The translations under genes were made by a program, and so were the position numbers. Shown here piece by piece: positions 4,007-20,539 of a DNA stretch of 22,053 nt. The notes beneath the pieces are model-generated. The model was not told where the DNA came from and did not search any database. It saw only the letters and a list, made by a program, of their open reading frames with translations. The DNA is from a virus. The number at the start of each line of letters is the position of its first letter. Within the stretch, counting starts at the first letter, position 1. Where the stretch lies: IMG/VR virus record IMGVR_UViG_3300042453_002992, positions 1 through 22,053 of that record; one strand, written 5' to 3'.

Positions 4007-4686
4007 GGCGCATCGACGAGATCAACATCCACTGCGCCGCCACCCGGCCGGGGTGGATGGCCGGGCGCACGGGCGCCGAGCGGGTCGCGGAGATCCGCCG
4101 CTGGCACGTCGAGCAGAACGGCTGGGCGGACATCGGCTACCACTTCCTGATCGACCGCGACGGCCGCGTCTACCCCGGCCGGCCGGTCCAGCGCACCGGG
4201 GCCTTCGAGCCGAAGGTCAACGCCACCGCGATCGGCGTGTGCCTGCTGGGAGGCCACGGCGCGGCGGCCACTGACGCGTTCGAGGCGCACTACACCCCCG
4301 AGCAGGCCGACGCCCTGCGCGACCTGATCGAGCAGCTGCGCGCCGAGCACCCGGGCATCCGCAAGGTGACGGGGCACAACGACTACAGCAGCAAAGCCTG
4401 CCCCGGCTTCCGGGTCGGCCGCTGGCTGGCGGGCAAGCCTGCGGAGCGCACCTTCGCGGAGTCGACGACGGCGGCCGGCGCCGGGTCGGCAACTGTCGCC
4501 GCCGGCGGCCTGGCCGTCGTCGAGGTCATGCCGCTGCTGTCCGACACCCGCTCGGCCATCGAGCAGGCCCGCGACACCACGGCCCAGGCCGACCCGCTCC
4601 GCTGGGTGCTGCTGGCGGTCATCCTGGCCGGCGCCGCCTACGCGCTGTGGGCCCGGTGGCGCGACTGGAAAGCGGGCCGCCGATGA
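4003..4686 (+). CDS. N-acetylmuramoyl-L-alanine amidase endolysin with C-terminal membrane segment
   Basis: A 227-residue protein with a GTG start that overlaps the holin stop (GTGA). The T7-lysozyme (Amidase_2) pattern is clear: His10 in INIHCAA, Tyr46-His47 in IGYHFLIDRDG, His125 in VTGHNDY, then Lys131 and Cys133 in SSKACPG. These match the zinc ligands (His, His, Cys) and the catalytic Tyr/Lys of the family, which cuts the amide bond between muramic acid and the peptide. After residue 150 comes an Ala/Gly-rich linker, and residues 201-217 (VLLAVILAGAAYALW) form a membrane segment followed by Arg and Lys. That tail suggests tethering to the inner membrane before holin action. The next gene starts in an ATGA overlap. 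Confidence 0.9.
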   Translation: MRRIDEINIHCAATRPGWMAGRTGAERVAEIRRWHVEQNGWADIGYHFLIDRDGRVYPGRPVQRTGAFEPKVNATAIGVCLLGGHGAAATDAFEAHYTPEQADALRDLIEQLRAEHPGIRKVTGHNDYSSKACPGFRVGRWLAGKPAERTFAESTTAAGAGSATVAAGGLAVVEVMPLLSDTRSAIEQARDTTAQADPLRWVLLAVILAGAAYALWARWRDWKAGRR

Positions 4687-5240
4687 TCCCGCTGCCCGGC
4701 CTGATCGGGCCCAAGCTCATCGCCGCTGTCGTCGTCGGCAGCAGCCTCGTCGCCGCCGGCTGGCTCGCCAGAGGCCAGATCGCCCGCGGCCAGATCGCCG
4801 AGCTGCGGGCCGAGCACGCCACCCAGGTTGCCGCCGCAGAGGCCGCTGCCCGCCAGGCCGTCGAGGCCGCCCGCGCCCGCGAGACGGAGATCGTCAACCG
4901 AACCGAGGAGATCGTCCGAGATGCCCGCACCACTGTCGAGGGCCTGCGCGCCGATGCTGCTGCTGCTGTCGCTGCTGCTGACGGCCTGCGGCTGGCCGCC
5001 GCGCGTTACGCCGCCCGCCGCTGCACCGGTCCCGGTGCGCCTGCCTCCGCTGCCGGGCGAGGCCAGGCAGCCGGCATGCCCGGCGACCTGCGAGATGCCG
5101 ACCGGCTCCTGCGCGTGCTCGCGGAGCTTGACGGCACAGCGGGAGCGCTGGCAGACCATGCTGACCGATCCCGAGCCGCCGGCCTCGCCTGCGAGCGCGC
5201 CTACGGCGCCGCCGTCGACGCGCTGAAGGCGGCGCGATAG
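4683..5240 (+). CDS. Rz: Rz-like inner-membrane spanin
   Basis: A 185-residue protein that starts in an ATGA overlap with the endolysin. The N-terminus is one membrane anchor (about 9-28, GPKLIAAVVVGSSLVAAGWL), followed by a long Ala/Glu/Arg-rich region (about 30-105) that should form a coiled coil in the periplasm. This is the architecture of i-spanins (Rz, DUF2514 type). With the nested Rz1 lipoprotein it would bridge the periplasm and fuse inner and outer membranes at the last step of lysis. Both the position after the endolysin and the embedded Rz1 support the call. Confidence 0.85.
   Translation: MIPLPGLIGPKLIAAVVVGSSLVAAGWLARGQIARGQIAELRAEHATQVAAAEAAARQAVEAARARETEIVNRTEEIVRDARTTVEGLRADAAAAVAAADGLRLAAARYAARRCTGPGAPASAAGRGQAAGMPGDLRDADRLLRVLAELDGTAGALADHADRSRAAGLACERAYGAAVDALKAAR
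4921..5226 (+). CDS. Rz1: Rz1 outer-membrane lipoprotein spanin, nested inside Rz
   Basis: A 101-residue frame wholly contained in the Rz gene. The start at 4921 has GAGGAG about 10 nt upstream. It opens with a lipoprotein signal peptide, residues 12-22 MLLLLSLLLTA, and lipobox LTAC with Cys23. The mature region is proline-rich (PPRVTPPAAAPVPVRLPPLP), a hallmark of Rz1. A frame that shows a signal peptide, lipobox and proline-rich tail exactly inside an Rz gene is very unlikely to be chance. In the family, Rz1 is anchored in the outer membrane and binds the C-terminus of Rz. Confidence 0.88.
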   Translation: MPAPLSRACAPMLLLLSLLLTACGWPPRVTPPAAAPVPVRLPPLPGEARQPACPATCEMPTGSCACSRSLTAQRERWQTMLTDPEPPASPASAPTAPPSTR

Positions 5241-5293
5241 CGACGATTCTGGGCGTGCTGCGTGCACTCAGACACGCAGAATCGGCGCTATAT

Positions 5294-5313
5294 CAGGTGG
5301 GGAAGTTCTTGGC
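5294..5313 (+). repeat. Direct repeat left of att core, candidate integrase arm site
   Basis: CAGGTGGGGAAGTTCTTGGC; 17 of 20 bases match the copy at 5480-5499 in the same orientation. The two copies flank the attachment core and may be arm-type binding sites for the phage integrase. Function is inferred from placement only. Confidence 0.45.
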
Positions 5314-5386
5314 CATCTGGGCGCACTTCGAGCACATCCGGCGCTGTACGCCGCAGGTGCGCACCCATGGCGGGGAGTGCGCGGCG

Positions 5387-5433
5387 GGATTGCAAATCCG
5401 TCCAGCCCGGTTCGACTCCGGGTCGCGCCTCCA
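5387..5433 (+). other. attP core: 3' end of tRNA-Cys(GCA)
   Basis: The segment runs from the anticodon loop (TTGCAAA, anticodon GCA) through a perfect T arm (CCCGG TTCGACT CCGGG) and acceptor 3' strand to CCA at 5433. The 5' half of a tRNA is absent or degenerate: the 5' side of the anticodon stem does not pair and the D arm is poor. This is the pattern of a phage attachment core that restores the 3' end of a host tRNA on integration. It lies 65 nt from the end of the integrase gene. Confidence 0.85.
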
Positions 5434-5460
5434 ATAAAATCAACAGCTTAGCGCTGATTC
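5434..5460 (-). terminator. Possible weak terminator after int
   Basis: Read leftward, a short CAGC-GCTAA-GCTG hairpin is followed by TTGATTTTATT. It could end leftward int transcription before the att core. The stem is only 4 bp plus weak flanking pairs, so the call is tentative. Confidence 0.3.
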
Positions 5461-5479
5461 GGCCACCGACCCGCCGCAG

Positions 5480-5499
5480 CAGGTGGGGAAGATGTTGGC
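5480..5499 (+). repeat. Direct repeat right of att core, candidate integrase arm site
   Basis: CAGGTGGGGAAGATGTTGGC, a near copy of 5294-5313 in the same orientation. It touches the integrase stop codon, so the P' arm would overlap the 3' end of int. Confidence 0.45.
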
Positions 5500-6452
5500 T
5501 AGCGAGCCCGCCTCAGCAGTGCGATGGCCTCGGCCTGGCGCTCGACCGAGTGGTGGGCGTAGCGCAGCGTGCTGGCCGGGGACTTGTGCCCCAGGATGCG
5601 GCCGATCGTGGCCAGGTCGACGCCTGCCGACGCCAGCGCAGACGCATGAGCGTGCCGCAGGTCGTGCAGCCGCACGTGCGGCATCTGGGCCGCGGTCCGG
5701 GCCAGCGGCCACCAGTAGTCGATGACCGACCGCGGCGGGATCTCGATGCGGCTGGCCGTGCTGATGATCGGGTGCATCGGCACGATCCTGGGCGAGCCGT
5801 TCTTGGTGTCGCGCAACAGGAAGCCGGCCGGCAGCCGCTCGGCGCGCTGGATCTCGGCAACCCGCATGCCGCTCCACCAGGCGATGCGGATCAGCGCCCG
5901 CACGCCAGGGTGCGGGCAGGCCCGCGCCAGCCGGACCATCTCGGCGCGGCTGATGACGATGTCGCGGGCGTTGCGCACCGTGGGCGACACCACGCGAGCG
6001 CCAGGGTCCTCGCCGCCGTCCTCTGTGCGCTTCCAGAACCAGCGGCAGGCCGCGCGCAGGTAGGCGATGCGGTTGCGGATGGTGGCCGGCTGCAGAGCGC
6101 CCTCCTGGTCGGCCGCGTACTCGGCGCAGACCTTCGGCAGCTGGTCCAGCGCGCGGCCAGTCCACCAGTCGCGCATCTGCTCGAGCTCGCGCTGGACGTT
6201 CGCGCCGTGCTTCAGCGCTGGCGCCCGGTGCTTGCAGTAACCAGTGACAGCGTCGTCGATGTGGTGCCGAGGCCGGGCGACGCCGGTCGCGATCGCGTAC
6301 AGGGCCGCGCTTTCCTGGCGGTCGAAGGCGTCGGCCTGGGCGCGGGTCCACCCGGGCGGCAGAAGTTGACGCCGGCGAACGCGCTGGCCGTTGACCCGGC
6401 GGTCGAAGTCGAACCGCCACTGGCCCGACTTGCGGTCACGGTAGATCGGCAT
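5499..6452 (-). CDS. int: Phage tyrosine recombinase (integrase)
   Basis: A 317-residue site-specific recombinase. The catalytic set is complete: Arg197 (SGMRVAEI), Lys217 (DTKNGSPR), His263 and Arg266 (LHDLRHAHAS), His289 (LGHKSPAS) and the nucleophile Tyr298 (TLRYAHH). Residues 1-30 look like an arm-binding domain (YRDRKSGQWRFDFDRRVNG) and about 65-140 like the core-binding SAM-like domain. The start at 6452 is preferred over an in-frame start at 6524 because of GAGGAG about 11 nt upstream and the fit to the arm-domain start. The gene points at the tRNA-Cys attP core. It lacks features I would associate with an integron integrase and is judged a phage integrase. Confidence 0.93.
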   Translation of the reverse strand: MPIYRDRKSGQWRFDFDRRVNGQRVRRRQLLPPGWTRAQADAFDRQESAALYAIATGVARPRHHIDDAVTGYCKHRAPALKHGANVQRELEQMRDWWTGRALDQLPKVCAEYAADQEGALQPATIRNRIAYLRAACRWFWKRTEDGGEDPGARVVSPTVRNARDIVISRAEMVRLARACPHPGVRALIRIAWWSGMRVAEIQRAERLPAGFLLRDTKNGSPRIVPMHPIISTASRIEIPPRSVIDYWWPLARTAAQMPHVRLHDLRHAHASALASAGVDLATIGRILGHKSPASTLRYAHHSVERQAEAIALLRRAR

Positions 6453-6607
6453 CGCGCCGCGTACTCCTCGATGTCCGTTTGCGCGAATCGTACCGCGCCG
6501 CCGCCGACGCCCAGCCGGTAGCACGCCAGCATACCCGCGGCAGCCAGGTCGTAGACCGCCCGGCGGCTGATGCAGAGGAGCTTGGCGGCTTCGGTGGCGG
6601 TGAGCAT
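6212..6607 (-). CDS. Excisionase-like winged-helix DNA-binding protein (xis), with long overlap into int
   Basis: The frame encodes 131 residues. Residues 1-54 are a clear HTH_17/excisionase-type domain: TATEAAKLLCISRRAVYDL (helix-turn-helix), then RLGVGGGAVRF (wing) and DIEEYAARCR. Residues 55-131 run out of frame through the first 241 nt of int and look like a shadow of that gene (Ser/Thr/Arg/Pro-rich), so the functional part is probably the first 54 residues. Position just upstream of int fits a recombination directionality factor. The start has no obvious Shine-Dalgarno sequence, perhaps because its upstream flank is the border of the cassette array. Confidence 0.75.
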   Translation of the reverse strand: MLTATEAAKLLCISRRAVYDLAAAGMLACYRLGVGGGAVRFAQTDIEEYAARCRSTVTASRASGGSTSTAGSTASAFAGVNFCRPGGPAPRPTPSTARKARPCTRSRPASPGLGTTSTTLSLVTASTGRQR

Positions 6608-6613
6608 TGAGCG

Positions 6614-6697
6614 GGCTAATGCGTTGTGTGGCTGGGCGTCAAGGCGCGTTAGGCGGAATGCGGCGGGTCCTGGCGTTCCGTCTACTTCACGTTAGCC
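6614..6697 (+). repeat. Degenerate left border of the cassette array
   Basis: This stretch holds GGCTAAT (6614-6620), a perfect GTTRRRY box GTTAGGC (6648-6654), a hairpin CGGAATGC/GCGTTCCG (6655-6681) and GTTAGCC (6691-6697). The last one contains the VUT stop codon as TTA. 6614-6654 could be a decayed attC, and 6648-6697 a remnant between two recombination boxes. No regular attC arms can be paired, so it may instead be a secondary insertion site. Confidence 0.45.
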
Positions 6698-7186
6698 GGC
6701 TGCCGCTTCTCGCTGCAGTGTGCGTGCCAGCAGTGCGGCCCATATCGCCCCGCCTGCTACTTTCGCCACAAACTGCAGCAGCACAATGTGCGGCATCAGC
6801 GCGCCGAAGGCCAGCGTCGGGAAGATCAGCGAATCCACCGCAGCGCCAGCCACGTTCGACCCGTTGGCACGGAACAGCCAAGAACCGCGCAGCCGCGTAA
6901 AGGTCGCCCAGTCCACCAGCGCGGCGGCACTGAAGGCGCAGGCGCTCGCCACCGCAATCATTCCAGCCGCAGGGTTGAGCGCGTAAGTGAGCAGGCCAGT
7001 GCTTGCGATCAGCGCACCCATCTGCCACGCCTTCAAGCGCACATGCAGCCAGTCGCGCAGCGCTAGGTCCAACCCGATCAGCACAAAAGCGTTGATGGGG
7101 CTCACCCACGGCCCCCAGGTGGCAACGGCAAGGTTCGCCAGCGTCATGGCGGCGGCGTACACGAAAACGGCAATGCTCAGGGTCAT
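6692..7186 (-). CDS. VUT/YhhQ-family transporter (queuosine precursor or 7-deazaguanine type)
   Basis: A 164-residue protein that is mostly membrane: about five hydrophobic segments, starting with IAVFVYAAAMTLANLAVATW. Family landmarks can be read: FVLIGLDLALRDWLH resembles the conserved FLATDLTVR of E. coli YhhQ, FTRLRGSWLFRANGSNVAGAAVDS resembles its FNRLRQSRRW/GNVSDT region, and FVAKVAGG its FKV segment. Known family members import preQ0/preQ1 or related queuosine precursors; at 164 residues this is shorter than YhhQ (about 221). The start overlaps the stop of the DpdA-like gene (ATGA), so the two are co-translated. The stop codon TAA lies inside the array border box at 6691-6697. Confidence 0.82.
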   Translation of the reverse strand: MTLSIAVFVYAAAMTLANLAVATWGPWVSPINAFVLIGLDLALRDWLHVRLKAWQMGALIASTGLLTYALNPAAGMIAVASACAFSAAALVDWATFTRLRGSWLFRANGSNVAGAAVDSLIFPTLAFGALMPHIVLLQFVAKVAGGAIWAALLARTLQREAAAG

Positions 7187-7932
7187 ATCAGGCTTCCTTG
7201 GTCTGCAGGTTGAAACTCCGGGACGGTGAAGCCCCAGCGTGCGGGCGCGTTGTGCGCCTCAATGCGGCTGCGCATCACGGCTGCGCGCATGTCTTTGTTG
7301 GGCGGCATGTAGTTGCCGCGCCAAGTCTGGTCTATGCCGATGTTCCGTCCGATGTTGGTGCTGTCGGCGCTGGCGAACGGCAGGCGCGTGAACACCTCTG
7401 GGTTAAGCATGCGCAGGCCGTGCAACTTCACCAGCGGCTGGCCGTCGTCGTTGCACACCACGCGCATGGCGCGGGCAATCTGGCCCCACCATGCGGCAGT
7501 GCCGATGGTTGCGAACGCGCCCGAGCTGCCAATGCACACGCGCGGCCACGCTGCGGCCAGCCGCTCAAGCCGGTCCAGGCTTTCGTGCATGTGCCACACC
7601 GGGGCGCCAAACCAGCGCGGCAGCGGCCACTCGGCCAGCAGCGCGTCGTTGTCGGCTTCGTCGCCGTCTATCACGTCGGGCACCACGGCAAAGTCGCACG
7701 CGGGCACCAACTTGCAGGCAGCAGCCCACTCGTAGTAGCCGCGCCAGTTCTGCACCGGCTCGCCCTTCTTCCAGGCACTGAAGGCGCCGTTGTCCACCGC
7801 GAAGCTCTGGCACACCTCCACGGCCACGCACAACTGGTCGGCGTGCGCGTAGCTCACAAAGGCGTGCCCGGCTTCAACAGCCTTGTTCGCTGCCGTCGCT
7901 GGCGTTATCGGTAGTCCGTGGTAATGGATCAA
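7183..7932 (-). CDS. DpdA/TGT-like TIM-barrel protein, probable 7-deazaguanine DNA transglycosylase
   Basis: A 249-residue protein counted from a TTG start at 7932; an in-frame TTG at 7971 is the alternative, and no ATG precedes residue 115. The motif order resembles phage DpdA and other tRNA-guanine transglycosylase relatives: FAVDNGAFSAW (Asp47), then YYEW, FAVVPDVIDG (Asp86), APVWHMHESLDRLERL, RVCIGSSGAFA, KLHGLRML (residues 169-176) and FASADSTNIGRN (Asp190). In the family these enzymes swap guanine for a 7-deazaguanine base. Short size and lack of a zinc site point to a DNA-acting DpdA rather than a bacterial tRNA enzyme, but I infer that. It is translationally coupled to the VUT transporter in the same cassette. 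Confidence 0.7.
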   Translation of the reverse strand: MIHYHGLPITPATAANKAVEAGHAFVSYAHADQLCVAVEVCQSFAVDNGAFSAWKKGEPVQNWRGYYEWAAACKLVPACDFAVVPDVIDGDEADNDALLAEWPLPRWFGAPVWHMHESLDRLERLAAAWPRVCIGSSGAFATIGTAAWWGQIARAMRVVCNDDGQPLVKLHGLRMLNPEVFTRLPFASADSTNIGRNIGIDQTWRGNYMPPNKDMRAAVMRSRIEAHNAPARWGFTVPEFQPADQGSLI

Positions 7933-7958
7933 GTGTTCATCTCGCTTCGGGAAGAGCC

Positions 7959-8016
7959 GGCTAACACGCAAATCAAGCTGACCGCCTACGGCGGCAGCTT
8001 ATTTGCAACGTTAGGC
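7959..8016 (+). repeat. attC site, 58 bp
   Basis: End boxes are GGCTAAC (7959-7965) and GTTAGGC (8010-8016). Inner arms are GCAAATCAAGCTG on the left and CAGCTTATTTGC on the right; the left arm has an extra C. A CCGCC-TAC-GGCGG tip closes the hairpin. The extra base sets the top strand to +. The stop codon of the gene at 8011-8535 (TTA on +) lies inside the right box. Confidence 0.88.
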
Positions 8017-8535
8017 AGCATCAACAGCCGGCCGGCGCAGCGTGTCGGCCAGTGCCGTCGCCGCCTCTTGCGTGGCGAATACCGCGAGCACCTTCCAGCG
8101 CGGCAGCCAATGCCCGCCATCCTTCATTTCTTCGGAGAACGTGGTGCAAACGTCCAGCGCCACGGCAGCGTATCGCTTCACGCGGTCAAGCTCGGTTTGC
8201 AGGCGCTTGCGTTCCTCTTCCAGTTCGGCCGCGTGGCGCCAGCCCTCGCGGCACGCTTGCCGAAGGTCGGCCAGTTCGGTATCGGCTTCGTCAAGGCGCG
8301 CATCGTCACCACGGCTCGCGGCCAGGCCACGCGCTACCGCAAGCTCGCGCTCTACAAATCCGCCGCCGCTGGTTGGGCTGCTGCTGCGCACGTTCGCGCA
8401 GGTGTCCATCACTGGCGCCGCGTAAAGTGGCAGCGCACGCTGGCCGAGATTCACATTTGCCAGCAGCGGGTCGGCTGTGACAAAAGCGTCTCGTCCGTCG
8501 TTGTTGACAACCATCCATGCAACAGGTTCAGTCAC
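8011..8535 (-). CDS. Phage-type coiled-coil protein with EPVAW/PLYAAP module, unknown function
   Basis: A 174-residue protein with a GTG start that overlaps the upstream 55-residue gene (GTGA). It opens with EPVAWMVVNNDG and LPLYAAP (about residues 36-42), a short module found at the N-terminus of many accessory phage proteins (Ea22/DUF551 neighbourhood). A Glu/Arg-rich segment (about 83-120, ELEEERKRLQTELDRVKR) should form a coiled coil. The TAA stop sits in the attC right box, as is usual for tight cassettes. The module is familiar but the biochemical role is unknown. Confidence 0.7.
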   Translation of the reverse strand: MTEPVAWMVVNNDGRDAFVTADPLLANVNLGQRALPLYAAPVMDTCANVRSSSPTSGGGFVERELAVARGLAASRGDDARLDEADTELADLRQACREGWRHAAELEEERKRLQTELDRVKRYAAVALDVCTTFSEEMKDGGHWLPRWKVLAVFATQEAATALADTLRRPAVDAA

Positions 8536-8699
8536 TGAGGCTCCTTTGCTTTGTCAATTTGTCGCGCCAGCCACTCAGCCCCAAGGCGCTTCAACTTTTC
8601 CCAGCGCGCATCGTTCAATCGCACGCTGCGCGGCTTGGTGGCTTCTTCTGCCGGCAGGGGCTTTCGCCCCTGGCCTCGTCCTGGGCCGCCTCGCGTCAC
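8532..8699 (-). CDS. Small basic protein, possibly ribbon-helix-helix
   Basis: A 55-residue protein found by filling the gap between two coupled genes. The GTG at 8699 overlaps the stop of the upstream gene (GTGA), and the TGA at 8532 overlaps the GTG of the downstream gene (GTGA). The core reads KPRSVRLNDARWEKLKRLG followed by AEWLARQIDKAKEP. A beta-strand-like RSVRL before two short helices is reminiscent of ribbon-helix-helix DNA-binding proteins, so it might regulate the promoter at 8906-8937, but that is inference. Overlaps at both ends make it a real gene. Confidence 0.72.
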   Translation of the reverse strand: MTRGGPGRGQGRKPLPAEEATKPRSVRLNDARWEKLKRLGAEWLARQIDKAKEPQ

Positions 8700-8875
8700 G
8701 CCACCGCCTTCAGCGCGGTCAGCGGCAGGGACATTTCGCCGCGCCGAGTTTTGCCAGTCACTTCGTCGTACTCCTTCACTTGGGCGTACTGCTCGCCGCC
8801 GATGGTGCGAAAGGCCAAGATCACGAACTTGCCGAACTTGCCTGCGACGATCTGGTTAACTTGAAAGCCGTTCAT
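8696..8875 (-). CDS. Small protein of unknown function, first gene of a cassette operon
   Basis: A 59-residue protein (MNGFQVNQIVAGKFGKFVIL...). The ATG at 8875 is chosen because GGAG lies 7 nt upstream; an in-frame ATG at 8923 would lie inside the promoter. The sequence is beta-rich with no membrane segment and resembles a small SH3-like barrel (FVILAFRTIGGEQYAQVKEYD). It is expressed first from the cassette promoter and is followed by two overlapping genes. Function unknown. Confidence 0.68.
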   Translation of the reverse strand: MNGFQVNQIVAGKFGKFVILAFRTIGGEQYAQVKEYDEVTGKTRRGEMSLPLTALKAVA

Positions 8876-8905
8876 TTGCTGTCTCCGGGTTGGTGTGTCG
8901 ATGGG

Positions 8906-8937
8906 TGTACTGTAGTACATCAATCAAACATACGCAA
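8906..8937 (-). promoter_or_regulatory. Cassette-borne promoter with palindromic operator
   Basis: Read leftward, TTGCGT (8937-8932), a 17-bp spacer and TACAGT (8914-8909) make a good sigma-70 promoter in a locally AT-richer stretch. A perfect dyad TGTACT-GT-AGTACA (8906-8919) covers the -10 box. The start codon at 8875 follows about 34 nt after the -10. The dyad suggests repression by a dimeric regulator, possibly the 55-residue protein of the same cassette. Confidence 0.62.
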
Positions 8938-8997
8938 GGGGTTCAGCAAAAGAAAGTTGTAACACTGCAAACAATGGCGCGCTCCGGCGCCAATGCT

Positions 8998-9055
8998 GCC
9001 TAACACTTCGTTCCAGCCGACTGCCTACGGCAGCGGCTGAACTCGGGCGTTAGGG
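8998..9055 (+). repeat. attC site, 58 bp, close to the aadA type
   Basis: End boxes are GCCTAAC (8998-9004) and GTTAGGG (9049-9055). The left part ACTTCGTTCCAGCCGAC and right part CGGCTGAACTCGGGC follow the well-known aadA attC almost base for base on the + strand. The left arm has the extra C (GTTCCAGCC against GGCTGAAC). The tip is CTGCC-TAC-GGCAG. The methyltransferase stop codon lies inside the right box. Confidence 0.93.
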
Positions 9056-9727
9056 CTCTCCGTGCTCAAAGAGCGCGGTTTGCCGTTGTGCCGCCTCTAG
9101 CCTTCGGCATGCCGTGCTGAAGTGGCGTTGGTCAATCTCGCAGCCGGTGAAGCTGCGGCCAGTTGTCACGCAGGCAACGCCGGTGCTTCCGCTGCCCATG
9201 TACGGGTCCAGCACCATTGCGCCGGCTGGCACCTTCGCCATGTCCAGGCACCACTGCATCAGTGCAATGGGCTTCTGTGTCGGGTGCGCCACGGTCTTGC
9301 CGTCGTTCTCAGCCTGGCGCGATGGCGGCGGGAACTGCTTGCGAAAGGCGTACACCCCATAACCGCCCTTCATCCACGCAATCTCACAGTCGCTCAGGAA
9401 CGTGCCGAATAGGTGATCCGCTTTCTTCAGCCACACCAGCGTCGTGCCCTTCGGCAGCCGCTGCGCGTAGTGGTTGCTTCCCCACAGCACCACGCGCGGG
9501 AAGTCCAGCCACCGCAGCGGGTCAAAGTCGGCCGCATCGCCTTCAATGTCGCCCCAGTCTGCGCGGCCTGTTCCGCGCTTGTGCGCTCCGCCGGTGAACC
9601 GCGTGCTGTCCGTGTCGTGCGCCATCCCATAGGGCGGGTCGCTCACCAGCGCATCGGCGCTCAGGCCCAGCAGCTCGCGGTTATCGCCGTGGTACAGCGT
9701 CGCCAGTCCTATGTTCTCAACCTTCAT
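9050..9727 (-). CDS. DNA adenine-N6 or cytosine-N4 methyltransferase, beta class
   Basis: A 225-residue methyltransferase. The catalytic motif DPPYGM (residues 30-35) comes first and the SAM-binding motif VLDPYMGSGSTG (173-183) last, which is the beta-class order. HPTQKP (148-153) is the conserved motif before it, and GCEIDQ (195-200) follows as the SAM ribose acidic site. The ATG at 9727 has GAGG 6 nt upstream. It transfers methyl from SAM to an exocyclic amino group in DNA; the target sequence cannot be read. No restriction enzyme gene is next to it, so it is an orphan, as expected of a phage protection gene. It fills a cassette of its own. Confidence 0.9.
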   Translation of the reverse strand: MKVENIGLATLYHGDNRELLGLSADALVSDPPYGMAHDTDSTRFTGGAHKRGTGRADWGDIEGDAADFDPLRWLDFPRVVLWGSNHYAQRLPKGTTLVWLKKADHLFGTFLSDCEIAWMKGGYGVYAFRKQFPPPSRQAENDGKTVAHPTQKPIALMQWCLDMAKVPAGAMVLDPYMGSGSTGVACVTTGRSFTGCEIDQRHFSTACRRLEAAQRQTALFEHGEP

Positions 9728-9746
9728 CTTGTTCCTCAACCAAAAG

Positions 9747-9817
9747 CCCTAACAAGCAAATCAACCCGGAAAGTCAACGGCTACGCCGTTGCCTTCCGGT
9801 TATTTGCGCAGTTAGGC
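9747..9817 (+). repeat. attC site, 71 bp
   Basis: End boxes are CCCTAAC (9747-9753) and GTTAGGC (9811-9817). The arms GCAAATCAACCCGGAA and TTCCGGTTATTTGC pair except for extra bases on the left. The tip is AACGGC-TAC-GCCGTT. The extra left-arm C again gives + polarity. Read leftward, TTGACT and TGTTAG with 17-bp spacing could act as a weak promoter for the methyltransferase gene. Confidence 0.9.
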
Positions 9818-9821
9818 GTCT

Positions 9822-10157
9822 TCAAGTCGGCCACAGGTGGTTCCCGTGGCAGTCGTCGCCAGCCGCAGCGCCCAAGCACATGGCGGCGGCTTCGTCGGCG
9901 GTCATCGCGCCGCACTGCTGGCACGGCGGCTGCTCCCAAGCGTGCCGGGCTTCTGCGCACGGGCGGCAGCACCGAGCGCGCTTGTCCACGCCGTGCGCTA
10001 CCTCGCCGCAGCGCTGGCAGGTGTTCATGTAGTTGCCGGGCGCGTAGCCGTAGCGCAGCAGGTGCTGCCACTCCGCGCGCTCCGGCTCCGGCCGCCTAAC
10101 ACCCGGGTCGAGCCGACCTTCGTCGGCGGGTGGCACATGTGCGTCTTCATGCTTCAT
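9822..10157 (-). CDS. Zinc-ribbon-like small phage protein
   Basis: A 111-residue protein with three Cys pairs: CQRC (47-50), CCRPC (63-67) and CQQC (79-82), plus Cys94 and Cys103. The pattern GNYMNTCQRCGEV...DKRARCCRPC belongs to a common phage protein type with a metal-binding ribbon. The ATG at 10157 has AAGGAGG 5 nt upstream. Start and Shine-Dalgarno both lie inside the attC at 10094-10192, so residues 1-21 are encoded by the attC left part. A start at Met44 would give just the conserved domain. Function unknown; probably nucleic-acid binding or a structural zinc knuckle. Confidence 0.72.
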   Translation of the reverse strand: MKHEDAHVPPADEGRLDPGVRRPEPERAEWQHLLRYGYAPGNYMNTCQRCGEVAHGVDKRARCCRPCAEARHAWEQPPCQQCGAMTADEAAAMCLGAAAGDDCHGNHLWPT

Positions 10158-10192
10158 CTGCGCCTCCTTGGCGGCTCAAACTATCGTTGGGC
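10094..10192 (+). repeat. attC site, 99 bp, with a gene start in its loop
   Basis: End boxes are GCCTAAC (10094-10100) and GTTGGGC (10186-10192). Arms are GGGTCGAGCC on the left and GGCTCAAAC on the right. A GCCGAC-CTTC-GTCGGC hairpin lies inside. The variable part holds the Shine-Dalgarno and ATG of the leftward zinc-ribbon gene and the stop of the next gene. The arms are less symmetrical than in the other sites. Confidence 0.68.
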
Positions 10193-10551
10193 GTCTTCAG
10201 GCGGGCCAGCAGTTCTTGTGCTCGCTCTGCGGATGCGGCATCCAGCCGGGCGCTGTACGCCTCATAGCCCTTGTGGTTGCCCATGTCGTAGTCGACGCGG
10301 ATATCTGCTCCCTGGCACATCACGCTGCGCACCCAAGACCACAGCTCTCCCTCAATCTGGGCATCCATCAGCGCGGCCTCGCGGCTCACGTCATTCGCGC
10401 TGCGCTCGCTGCCTGGTTTGGCCCCTAGCGTTAGCACAAGAGCGTGTAGCGCACAGGTCTGCACTATCTTGTCGGCAAGGCCGGCGCGCTCCGGCACCAG
10501 ACGCCCAACCCGGCGCTCAACCGGACCTTGGCCGGCACTGTCTGTGGTCAT
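10147..10551 (-). CDS. Cassette protein of unknown function
   Basis: A 134-residue soluble protein. The ATG at 10551 overlaps the upstream stop (ATGA) and has GGAG 5 nt before it, both inside the attC loop at 10503-10593. Residues 1-16 are encoded by that attC. The central part (about 60-118, MDAQIEGELWSWVRSVMC...YDMGNHKGYEAYSARLD) looks like the real domain, helical and acidic. The C-terminus (LKTPNDSLSRQ) reads through the right box of the next attC because GTTGGGC offers no stop, and ends at 10147. I do not recognise the family. Confidence 0.65.
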   Translation of the reverse strand: MTTDSAGQGPVERRVGRLVPERAGLADKIVQTCALHALVLTLGAKPGSERSANDVSREAALMDAQIEGELWSWVRSVMCQGADIRVDYDMGNHKGYEAYSARLDAASAERAQELLARLKTPNDSLSRQGGADEA

Positions 10552-10593
10552 TTCAGCTCCTGTCGGCCAAGGCCGGTTAGCTCTACGTTAGGC
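10503..10593 (+). repeat. attC site, 91 bp, right border of the array
   Basis: End boxes are GCCCAAC (10503-10509) and GTTAGGC (10587-10593). Arms GCTCAACCGGACCTTGGCCG and CGGCCAAGGCCGGTTAGC pair with extra bases on the left arm, giving + polarity. The loop contains the Shine-Dalgarno and ATG of the leftward gene at 10147-10551 and the stop of the phage gene at 10548-10940. Array and phage operon meet here. Confidence 0.88.
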
Positions 10594-10940
10594 CGCGCGT
10601 CGTCGCGGCCATGCCAGACGTCATCCAGCTGCTCGCGGTACGCATACCGATCCTCCGGGCACTCGTGCGCCGCGTTGATGTGCCACGCGCACAGCACCTC
10701 CCAGCAGCCCTGAGTCGGCAGCCCGGTCCACGGGCCGCGCGGCTCTGTCCGATGCCGCTCCCCGGCGTCTAGCCCGACCAGCGGCAAGATCCACCCGCGC
10801 CGCATGCCAGGGTGCCGGCGCCACTCCGGGTCGATGCCGCGGCGGCGCAGCAGGGCCTGCAGGCGCTCGATCGGCGGCAGCTCGCGCGGCTTCTGGCGGC
10901 GCGGAGCGAGCGGCAGAGCCAGCTGCTGTCCCACAGCCAT
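10548..10940 (-). CDS. Early phage protein of unknown function with attC-encoded C-terminus
   Basis: About 130 residues. The ATG at 10940 forms a TGATG joint with the upstream gene; a GTG at 10943 is possible. The body is basic at the N-terminus (LALPLAPRRQKPRELPPIERLQALLRRRGIDP is the reading, of which PPIERLQALLRRRG is probably a helix), then a Trp- and His-containing domain (CWEVLCAWHINAAHECPEDR) followed by REQLDDVWHG. The last residues, PNVELTGLGRQELK, are encoded by the attC at 10503-10593, so the natural C-terminus may have been replaced when the array was inserted. Unknown function. Confidence 0.65.
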   Translation of the reverse strand: MAVGQQLALPLAPRRQKPRELPPIERLQALLRRRGIDPEWRRHPGMRRGWILPLVGLDAGERHRTEPRGPWTGLPTQGCWEVLCAWHINAAHECPEDRYAYREQLDDVWHGRDDARPNVELTGLGRQELK

Positions 10941-11200
10941 CACCCCGCCAACCGGTGCCGCCGCACGCTGACGATGCCGGGCGGCAGCGCCTGGTGCTCC
11001 TGGCCGTCGGCGCGCTCGATGAATGCGCTCTCGCCGCCGCCCGTGGCCCGCAGGTAGTCCACCTCGACCTTGGCGGTATCCACCAGGGTTTTGCTCAGCT
11101 CGTTGATGGCGCGCGCCTTGTCGAGCTCCAGCTGACCACTCTTGACGCCCTCAAGGGCTGCAAACAGGTGCGCGCGCAGGGCGCCCATGTCTTGGCTCAT
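10940..11200 (-). CDS. Small early phage protein, helical
   Basis: An 86-residue protein (MSQDMGALRAHLFAALEGVK...). The ATG at 11200 overlaps the HNH gene stop (ATGA). The pattern ALEGVKSGQLELDKARAINELSKTLVDTAKVEVDYLRATG is typical of a small helical phage protein seen next to HNH genes in Burkholderiales prophages. The C-terminus is positively charged (VSVRRHRLAG). Role unknown. Confidence 0.7.
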   Translation of the reverse strand: MSQDMGALRAHLFAALEGVKSGQLELDKARAINELSKTLVDTAKVEVDYLRATGGGESAFIERADGQEHQALPPGIVSVRRHRLAG

Positions 11201-20326: not shown

Positions 20327-20539
20327 GTCCAACCTCGCCCGCCGTCCAACCTGCGCAAAGGTTGGACGAAAGGTTGGACGAGAGGTTGGACGACATAGGT
20401 GGCCGTCCAACCTTCCAACCCTCGTATGCGCATGTGGGCGCGCATGCAGGCGGGCGAGCGGGCGAGCGGGCGCCCGCCCACGCCGGCGCGCACGCGAGGG
20501 GACCAGGTTGGACAGGTTGGACGGAGGGAAAGGTTGGAC
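20327..20539 (+). repeat. Iteron cluster, candidate origin of replication
   Basis: Nine perfect copies of an 8-mer: GGTTGGAC at 20360, 20372, 20384, 20506, 20515 and 20532, and its complement GTCCAACC at 20327, 20344 and 20405; TTCCAACC at 20413 is a near copy. Three are spaced exactly 12 bp. Two inverted pairs form hairpins (20344-20367 and 20384-20412). The cluster follows the replication gene directly, as origin iterons do in many phages and plasmids. Confidence 0.8.

Follow-up and report, generated by a model that had tools for sequence, protein, structure and literature searches.

Introduction

Integrons, platforms for the exchange of gene cassettes, are known chiefly from bacteria, and have been described in phages before. 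Qi et al. 2023 (PMC9892861) list 17 clusters of attC sites lacking an integron integrase (CALINs) and a few integrons in phages, and of the six phage attCs that they assayed with IntI1, five recombined. One of their complete phage integrons was captured from a Vibrio chromosome, that of P1 is a class 1 mosaic, and the remaining one belongs to a cryptic Shewanella prophage; in the CALINs TJE1 and PH101 all cassettes have one direction, which is termed typical, and another CALIN has divergent attCs. Here we analysed the entire IMG/VR record IMGVR_UViG_3300042453_002992, a linear fragment of 22,053 bp (hereafter the window), in which positions 6614-10593 had been taken, in a reading of the sequence alone (the sequence-only reading), for five integron-type cassettes arrayed within a temperate phage's early operon. 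The analysis upholds this description and, judging from sequence comparison, the region very probably represents the cassettes of a phage integron from which intI was lost or in which it was never present. CALINs as such have already been seen in phages; what is new is the reversed, phage-dedicated form found here, distinguished by the orientation of its genes, by phage-borne IntI and attI in its lineage and by translation signals placed in attC. The sequence-only reading was silent on the reversal of the genes relative to attC and on the translation starts within the attCs.

Results

A covariance model (R1) was derived from attCs of independent bacterial integrons on plasmids and in genomes, 20 sites in all, each array adjoining an intI gene and none taken from the window, and both strands of the window were searched with it with filters off. 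Exactly five strong + strand matches were obtained inside 6614-10593, with scores of 35-58.5 bits and E-values from 2e-6 to 6e-12, in agreement with the five attCs that had been claimed from the letters and for which a covariance search had been proposed as the check. These sites are 7959-8016 (cassette 1; 47.8 bits, E 1.8e-9), 8998-9055 (cassette 2; 58.5 bits, E 6e-12), 9747-9817 (cassette 3; 35.0 bits, E 1.9e-6), 10094-10192 (cassette 4; 35.0 bits, E 1.9e-6) and 10503-10593 (cassette 5, at the right end of the array; 50.7 bits, E 3.9e-10). On the minus strand the same sites scored only 7.8-23.9 bits, and the next-best match in the window, besides the five sites and their reverse strands, reached 15 bits. 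The extra base on the left arm, from which the + orientation had originally been deduced, and the low minus-strand scores together establish that the attCs are oriented on the + strand; a misjudged orientation is ruled out by the scores on the two strands, by the geometry of attI and intI and by an insertion junction in a related contig, L188 (see below). The site at 8998-9055, said to follow the attC of aadA closely, does show 77-89% identity to attCs of plasmid integrons, of aadA-type and others, and the site at 10503-10593 has an 81% similar counterpart in the related contig L038, where it adjoins a relative of cassette 1. Arm complementarity alone was rejected as evidence, since a scan of R boxes and arms in 50 dinucleotide shuffles showed that arm scores of 10-13 arise by chance in such GC-rich DNA, and R1 is the better test because it also uses sequence and arm layout. 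A strict RYYYAAC/GTTRRRY pattern scan misses real sites with GGCTAAC and GTTAGGG.

All sensible genes of the array region lie on the minus strand, that is, antisense to their own attCs, and none of the cassette genes in the window has the usual form of an open reading frame (ORF) in the attC direction. Cassette 1 (6692-8010) carries genes for a VUT/YhhQ-like transporter (6692-7186) and a queuine tRNA-guanine transglycosylase (TGT)/DpdA-like protein (7183-7971, start uncertain), with matches to PF02592 and phrog_887. This pair, a possible 7-deazaguanine DNA or tRNA modification module, is also present in viral contigs without an R1 attC, such as L043 and L046. Three ORFs without assigned function (8011-8535, 8532-8699 and 8696-8923) make up cassette 2 (8011-9049), and cassette 3 (9050-9739) encodes an N6/N4 DNA methyltransferase (PF01555, E 4e-17) whose TAA stop codon coincides with the TTA of the R' box. 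A zinc-ribbon-like protein with a weak match to DZR_2 is encoded by cassette 4 (9822-10157), and a protein without family, taken from the ORF list, by cassette 5 (10147-10551), the gene of which runs through the next attC and overlaps that of cassette 4. In both of these last cassettes the start codon lies inside attC, a Shine-Dalgarno (SD) sequence and ATG being found within the loop of the cassette's own site (AGGAGGCGCAGATG, antisense, in cassette 4; AGGAGCTGAAATG in cassette 5, for which the RNA fold of the site was computed).

The same reversal was observed in a set of 68 attC-to-attC phage cassettes, in which the best ORF according to a codon score trained on phage genes was antisense to attC in 51, sense in a single case and undecided in 16. 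This score is invalid for the lower-GC bacterial control, for which the longest ORF was used, and there the cassettes were sense in 63 of 75 from Burkholderiales chromosomal integrons and in 35 of 39 from class-1-like integrons (98/114 overall). When a positive codon score was required in both groups, 20 phage cassettes and no Burkholderiales control had an antisense ORF stopping at the TTA of the R' box. Likewise, an antisense SD sequence with ATG lies inside 14 of 90 phage attCs, as compared with 0/67 and 0/87 in the controls, and inside or at most 60 nt from attC in 43 of 90, as compared with 2/67 and 7/87. Long phage attCs often hold the ribosome-binding site and start codon of the gene, and when several start-bearing attCs were folded as RNA, the start region fell within the hairpin loop or close to it. 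In cassettes of this kind the left arm of attC is predicted to be translated as the N terminus of the protein.

Cassettes of the window recur in related viral contigs. Cassette 1 (6690-8024) is 89-91% identical in L038, L039, L041 and L042, where its neighbours are different and homology stops at or near the R boxes; cassette 2 (8010-9055) has a 94% identical counterpart in L101, surrounded there by other cassettes; and the methyltransferase of cassette 3 (9049-9751) has a 90% relative in L096, beside other palindromes. Since cassettes 1 to 3 recur among different neighbours, the notion that these palindromes are never used as insertion boundaries fails. Mobile units bounded by G|TTRRRY are in fact present in some relatives and absent from others, as is proper to gene cassettes and as the sequence-only reading had anticipated for the GTTRRRY boundaries. 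Two contigs from different metagenomes, L186 and L188, match at 100% identity over intI, attI and the cassette that follows, except that L188 has one extra cassette, with the junctions ...CCTG|TTGGGC... at attI and ...GACG|TTAGCC... at attC. On a larger scale, L206 and L225 share ~97% identity in the flank that holds intI and 94-96% in the opposite flank, and between the two they carry unrelated arrays of 4 and 7 cassettes, homology breaking at the GTT of attI and resuming at the last R' box. Two side observations were made in these contigs: in L096 (1668-2590) the methyltransferase relative lies between near-identical palindromes (CGCCGCAGCACCCGCTGCGGCACTCGCAGCGG) unrecognised by the attC model, and at the left end of L188 (1-209) cassette A is followed by a second copy of the beginning of the inserted cassette, giving the order B-A-B.

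No integron integrase was found in the 22-kb window with TIGR02249, the best match being the phage tyrosine integrase at the end of the leftward operon (5499-6524, minus strand; PF00589, PHROG 1), with 23.5 bits against a cut-off of 265; it had rightly been stated that intI is missing and that this is the only tyrosine recombinase present. The window thus lacks the intI of a complete integron and has the two features of a CALIN, two or more close attCs (five within 2.6 kb) and, as far as this fragment extends, no integron integrase nearby. A different picture emerged when whole related records were searched. L003 and L052 encode bona fide IntI (439 and 425 bits), in both directly adjoining the phage integrase; the opposite side is occupied in L052 by VUT-DpdA genes. 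The window and L003 are homologous exactly up to 6607, where the gene for a small excisionase-like helix-turn-helix (HTH) protein (6212-6607, minus strand; PF12728) has its start codon, and intI comes next in L003, ending directly before the HTH gene; homology with L002 likewise stops at 6607. About 17 phage contigs have IntI beside a phage integrase, with catalytic residues conserved and 408-439 bits in those tested. R1 attCs lie upstream of intI, on the opposite strand, in 14 of these contigs; L003, L052 and L212 end at or soon after attI. A conserved phage attI is found at the intI 5' end, with the consensus GTGTTAYGCCGC...GCGGTCGAATT...GTTRRRY, and complete integrons comprising intI, attI and an attC array occur in L187, L186, L206, L211 and others. 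The phage nature of L211, L186 and L187 is evident from genes for terminase large subunit, portal, major head protein, tape measure, head protease and tail proteins. One 23-kb contig in a Burkholderiaceae genome assembly (L271), probably a lysogen, carries a tail gene, a phage integrase, an IntI of 71% identity and three attCs, and its cassette genes, a methyltransferase included, are reversed as well.

At 6614-6697, the left boundary of the array in the sequence-only reading, no R1 match was obtained, 6648-6697 included, and this leftmost site is not an attC by the model. Instead, 6648-6697 (+ strand), with a putative crossover box GTTAGCC at 6691-6697, is assigned with moderate confidence as an attI-like left end of the array: it resembles the attI of the intI-bearing phages L216 and L217, and the boundary of cassette 1 homology in L038-L042 falls at 6680-6690. 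The window would accordingly consist of attI and cassettes with intI absent, loss of intI being the likelier history. No sigma-70-like promoter was found on either strand of 6600-11000 by a scan for consensus matches only. An attI-like site adjoining a phage helicase gene was also noted in L039 (5440-6997), a second instance of attI and cassettes without intI.

Relative to the IntI of L206, Burkholderiales chromosomal IntIs show at most 63% identity and phage IntIs 59-99%. In a tree, two phage IntI clades stand beside a Burkholderiales IntI clade and apart from IntI1, and phage IntI may thus have arisen once or more than once. None of the isolate phages in the collection carries the phage IntI clade, and the only match in related isolates is a 67% DpdA-like one in Pseudomonas phage Epa33. 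A scan of bacterial genomes gave no close relative of the DpdA-like gene, and the VUT-like gene had matches of 70-74% only, in 3 of 351 Burkholderiaceae genomes; within these scans neither bacterial copies of the window cassettes nor exchange with host integrons was seen. Among 60 cassette proteins there are four N6/N4 methyltransferases, DpdA-like and VUT proteins, a phosphoadenosine phosphosulfate (PAPS) reductase, an HNH endonuclease and helicases, and most are without family.

As to the phage setting, the window contains tail genes and an amidase (both from the ORF list), the phage integrase, a leftward early-gene block and a primase/helicase, and the array sits in the leftward early operon of a temperate phage, with early genes on one side and xis/int on the other. 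A tRNA-like stretch at 5389-5439, with 92-93% identity across the otherwise diverged phages L004, L005, L006 and L052, is probably the attachment core adjoining the phage integrase. Repeats of GTCCAACCT / AGGTTGGAC in both orientations cluster at 20327-20522, around the primase 3' end, and might act as iterons of a replication origin or as sites for a repressor.

Discussion

We hypothesize that the attI-like site at the left end is the entry point of the cassettes, that intI was most likely lost between it and the HTH gene, and that the window cassettes would move when another phage or the host provides IntI. As in bacterial integrons, cassettes are expected to enter and leave at G|TTRRRY via the folded bottom strand of attC. 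The inverted genes would be read by phage early transcription from the distal end of the array towards attI, the integron promoter Pc would be unneeded, and the newest cassette would lie furthest from the phage early promoter. Each cassette may also supply its own translation signals, given that SD sequence and start codon frequently fall in or beside attC and that the R' box frequently provides the TAA stop codon. It had been proposed that such a phage swaps accessory genes by means of the integrases of its hosts; the cassette array without intI stands, and dependence on host integrases is unneeded, because related phages encode IntI and attI. The cargo, with methyltransferases, DpdA-like proteins with VUT and many small proteins without family, would fit counter-defence and host adaptation. 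Extending this beyond the window, we find it fairly probable that Burkholderiales-type temperate phages evolved an integron class of their own, with phage-only IntI clades, a conserved attI beside xis/int, a virus-only pool of inverted cassettes and attCs doubling as translation start regions, traded between phages including those that lack intI and rely on IntI in trans.

Instead of deriving from a phage integron, the array might be a CALIN that illegitimate recombination brought in from an integron of a host chromosome, an origin that Qi et al. 2023 (PMC9892861) propose for several phages. The missing intI of the window, the known phage CALINs and the presence of related IntIs, of up to 63% identity, in Burkholderiales chromosomes would all agree with such an origin. 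We nevertheless consider it improbable, as the genes are reversed relative to attC, unlike those of chromosomal cassettes, as sister phages carry IntI and attI at the same spot, and as the cassettes, with no bacterial copies found in the genomes scanned, recur in other viral contigs. Ordinary conserved intergenic hairpins, acting as terminators or in RNA processing or translation control, could resemble attCs: the sites do lie between genes, folding of the mRNA predicts hairpins, of which some hold the start codon in their loop, and a search of Rfam, which matched no family, rules out described families only. That the sites are such hairpins is very improbable, given that a model built independently of the window recognizes them in the correct orientation and that relatives encode IntI in cis, and the use of the palindromes as insertion boundaries in relatives rules this candidate out.

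A further possibility is that the attCs are passive linkers and that arrays diversify by homologous or Red-type recombination between conserved attC/R-box sequences. Phages are mosaic, the interior of attC differs in L096 and L038 even though the gene is 90% identical, and the difference between L206 and L225 covers the whole array, all of which such exchange would explain. However, the single cassette gained by L188 sits exactly at attI, with flanks 100% identical to those of L186, the attCs retain arm pairing and the extra base even where their sequences differ, and intI and attI are conserved in the lineage, so that this explanation is improbable. One of these points does weigh against a phage integron, namely the possibility that the whole-array exchange in L206/L225 reflects homologous recombination in the flanks, and several others have to be set beside it. 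The codon score was trained on phage genes and left 16 of the 68 cassettes undecided, and by longest ORF alone 45 phage cassettes are antisense and 23 sense. The repeat at the left end of L188 may be an assembly effect of mixed array variants or a duplicated cassette, the assignment of attI in the window depends on a short resemblance, and, the record being a 22-kb fragment without intI, the gene could lie elsewhere in the phage. Recombination, like the loss of intI and the expression of the genes, is deduced here from sequence. Even so, the reading that we favour is that of cassettes in a phage integron whose own intI was either lost or never present.

If this is correct, phages would gain site-specific, one-at-a-time swapping of accessory genes instead of random mosaicism, focused on DNA-modification and other early genes that decide the success of infection. 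Integron function would also be separable from Pc, the same attC/IntI machinery working with the genes turned and with a phage operon and start codons in attC. Cassette exchange in co-infected cells, service in trans to a phage without intI and the closure of the phage pool to bacterial integrons become testable questions.

Comparison with known systems

Like the phage CALINs of PMC9892861, the window has an attC array without intI and a methyltransferase cassette, whereas the accessible portion of that paper does not mention cassettes in reversed orientation, translation starts within attC or a phage IntI clade that has its own attI next to xis/int; in the open-licence literature no account was found of arrays with reversed cassettes or of attCs holding start codons. 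Virus Rctr41k (KX853513), an uncultured virus, has an IntI-like gene in a co-directional block with methyltransferases, as in the phage form, but differs from it in showing a single weak attC-like match (19.9 bits) and no comparable array; this gene (4680-5678) is annotated xerD and is 47% identical to phage IntI. In the atypical integrons of Treponema (PMC3607928) intI and cassette genes also have one direction. There, however, it is intI that is turned and transcribed towards attI, while in the phage form intI and attI are arranged as usual and the genes are turned relative to attC. With class 1 and Burkholderiales chromosomal integrons the phage form shares a TIGR02249 IntI, attI at the intI 5' end, the anatomy of attC, an array on the far side of attI and insertion at G|TTRRRY. 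In contrast, bacterial cassette genes follow the attC direction and are read from Pc at attI, whereas those of the phages point towards attI and are co-directional with intI.

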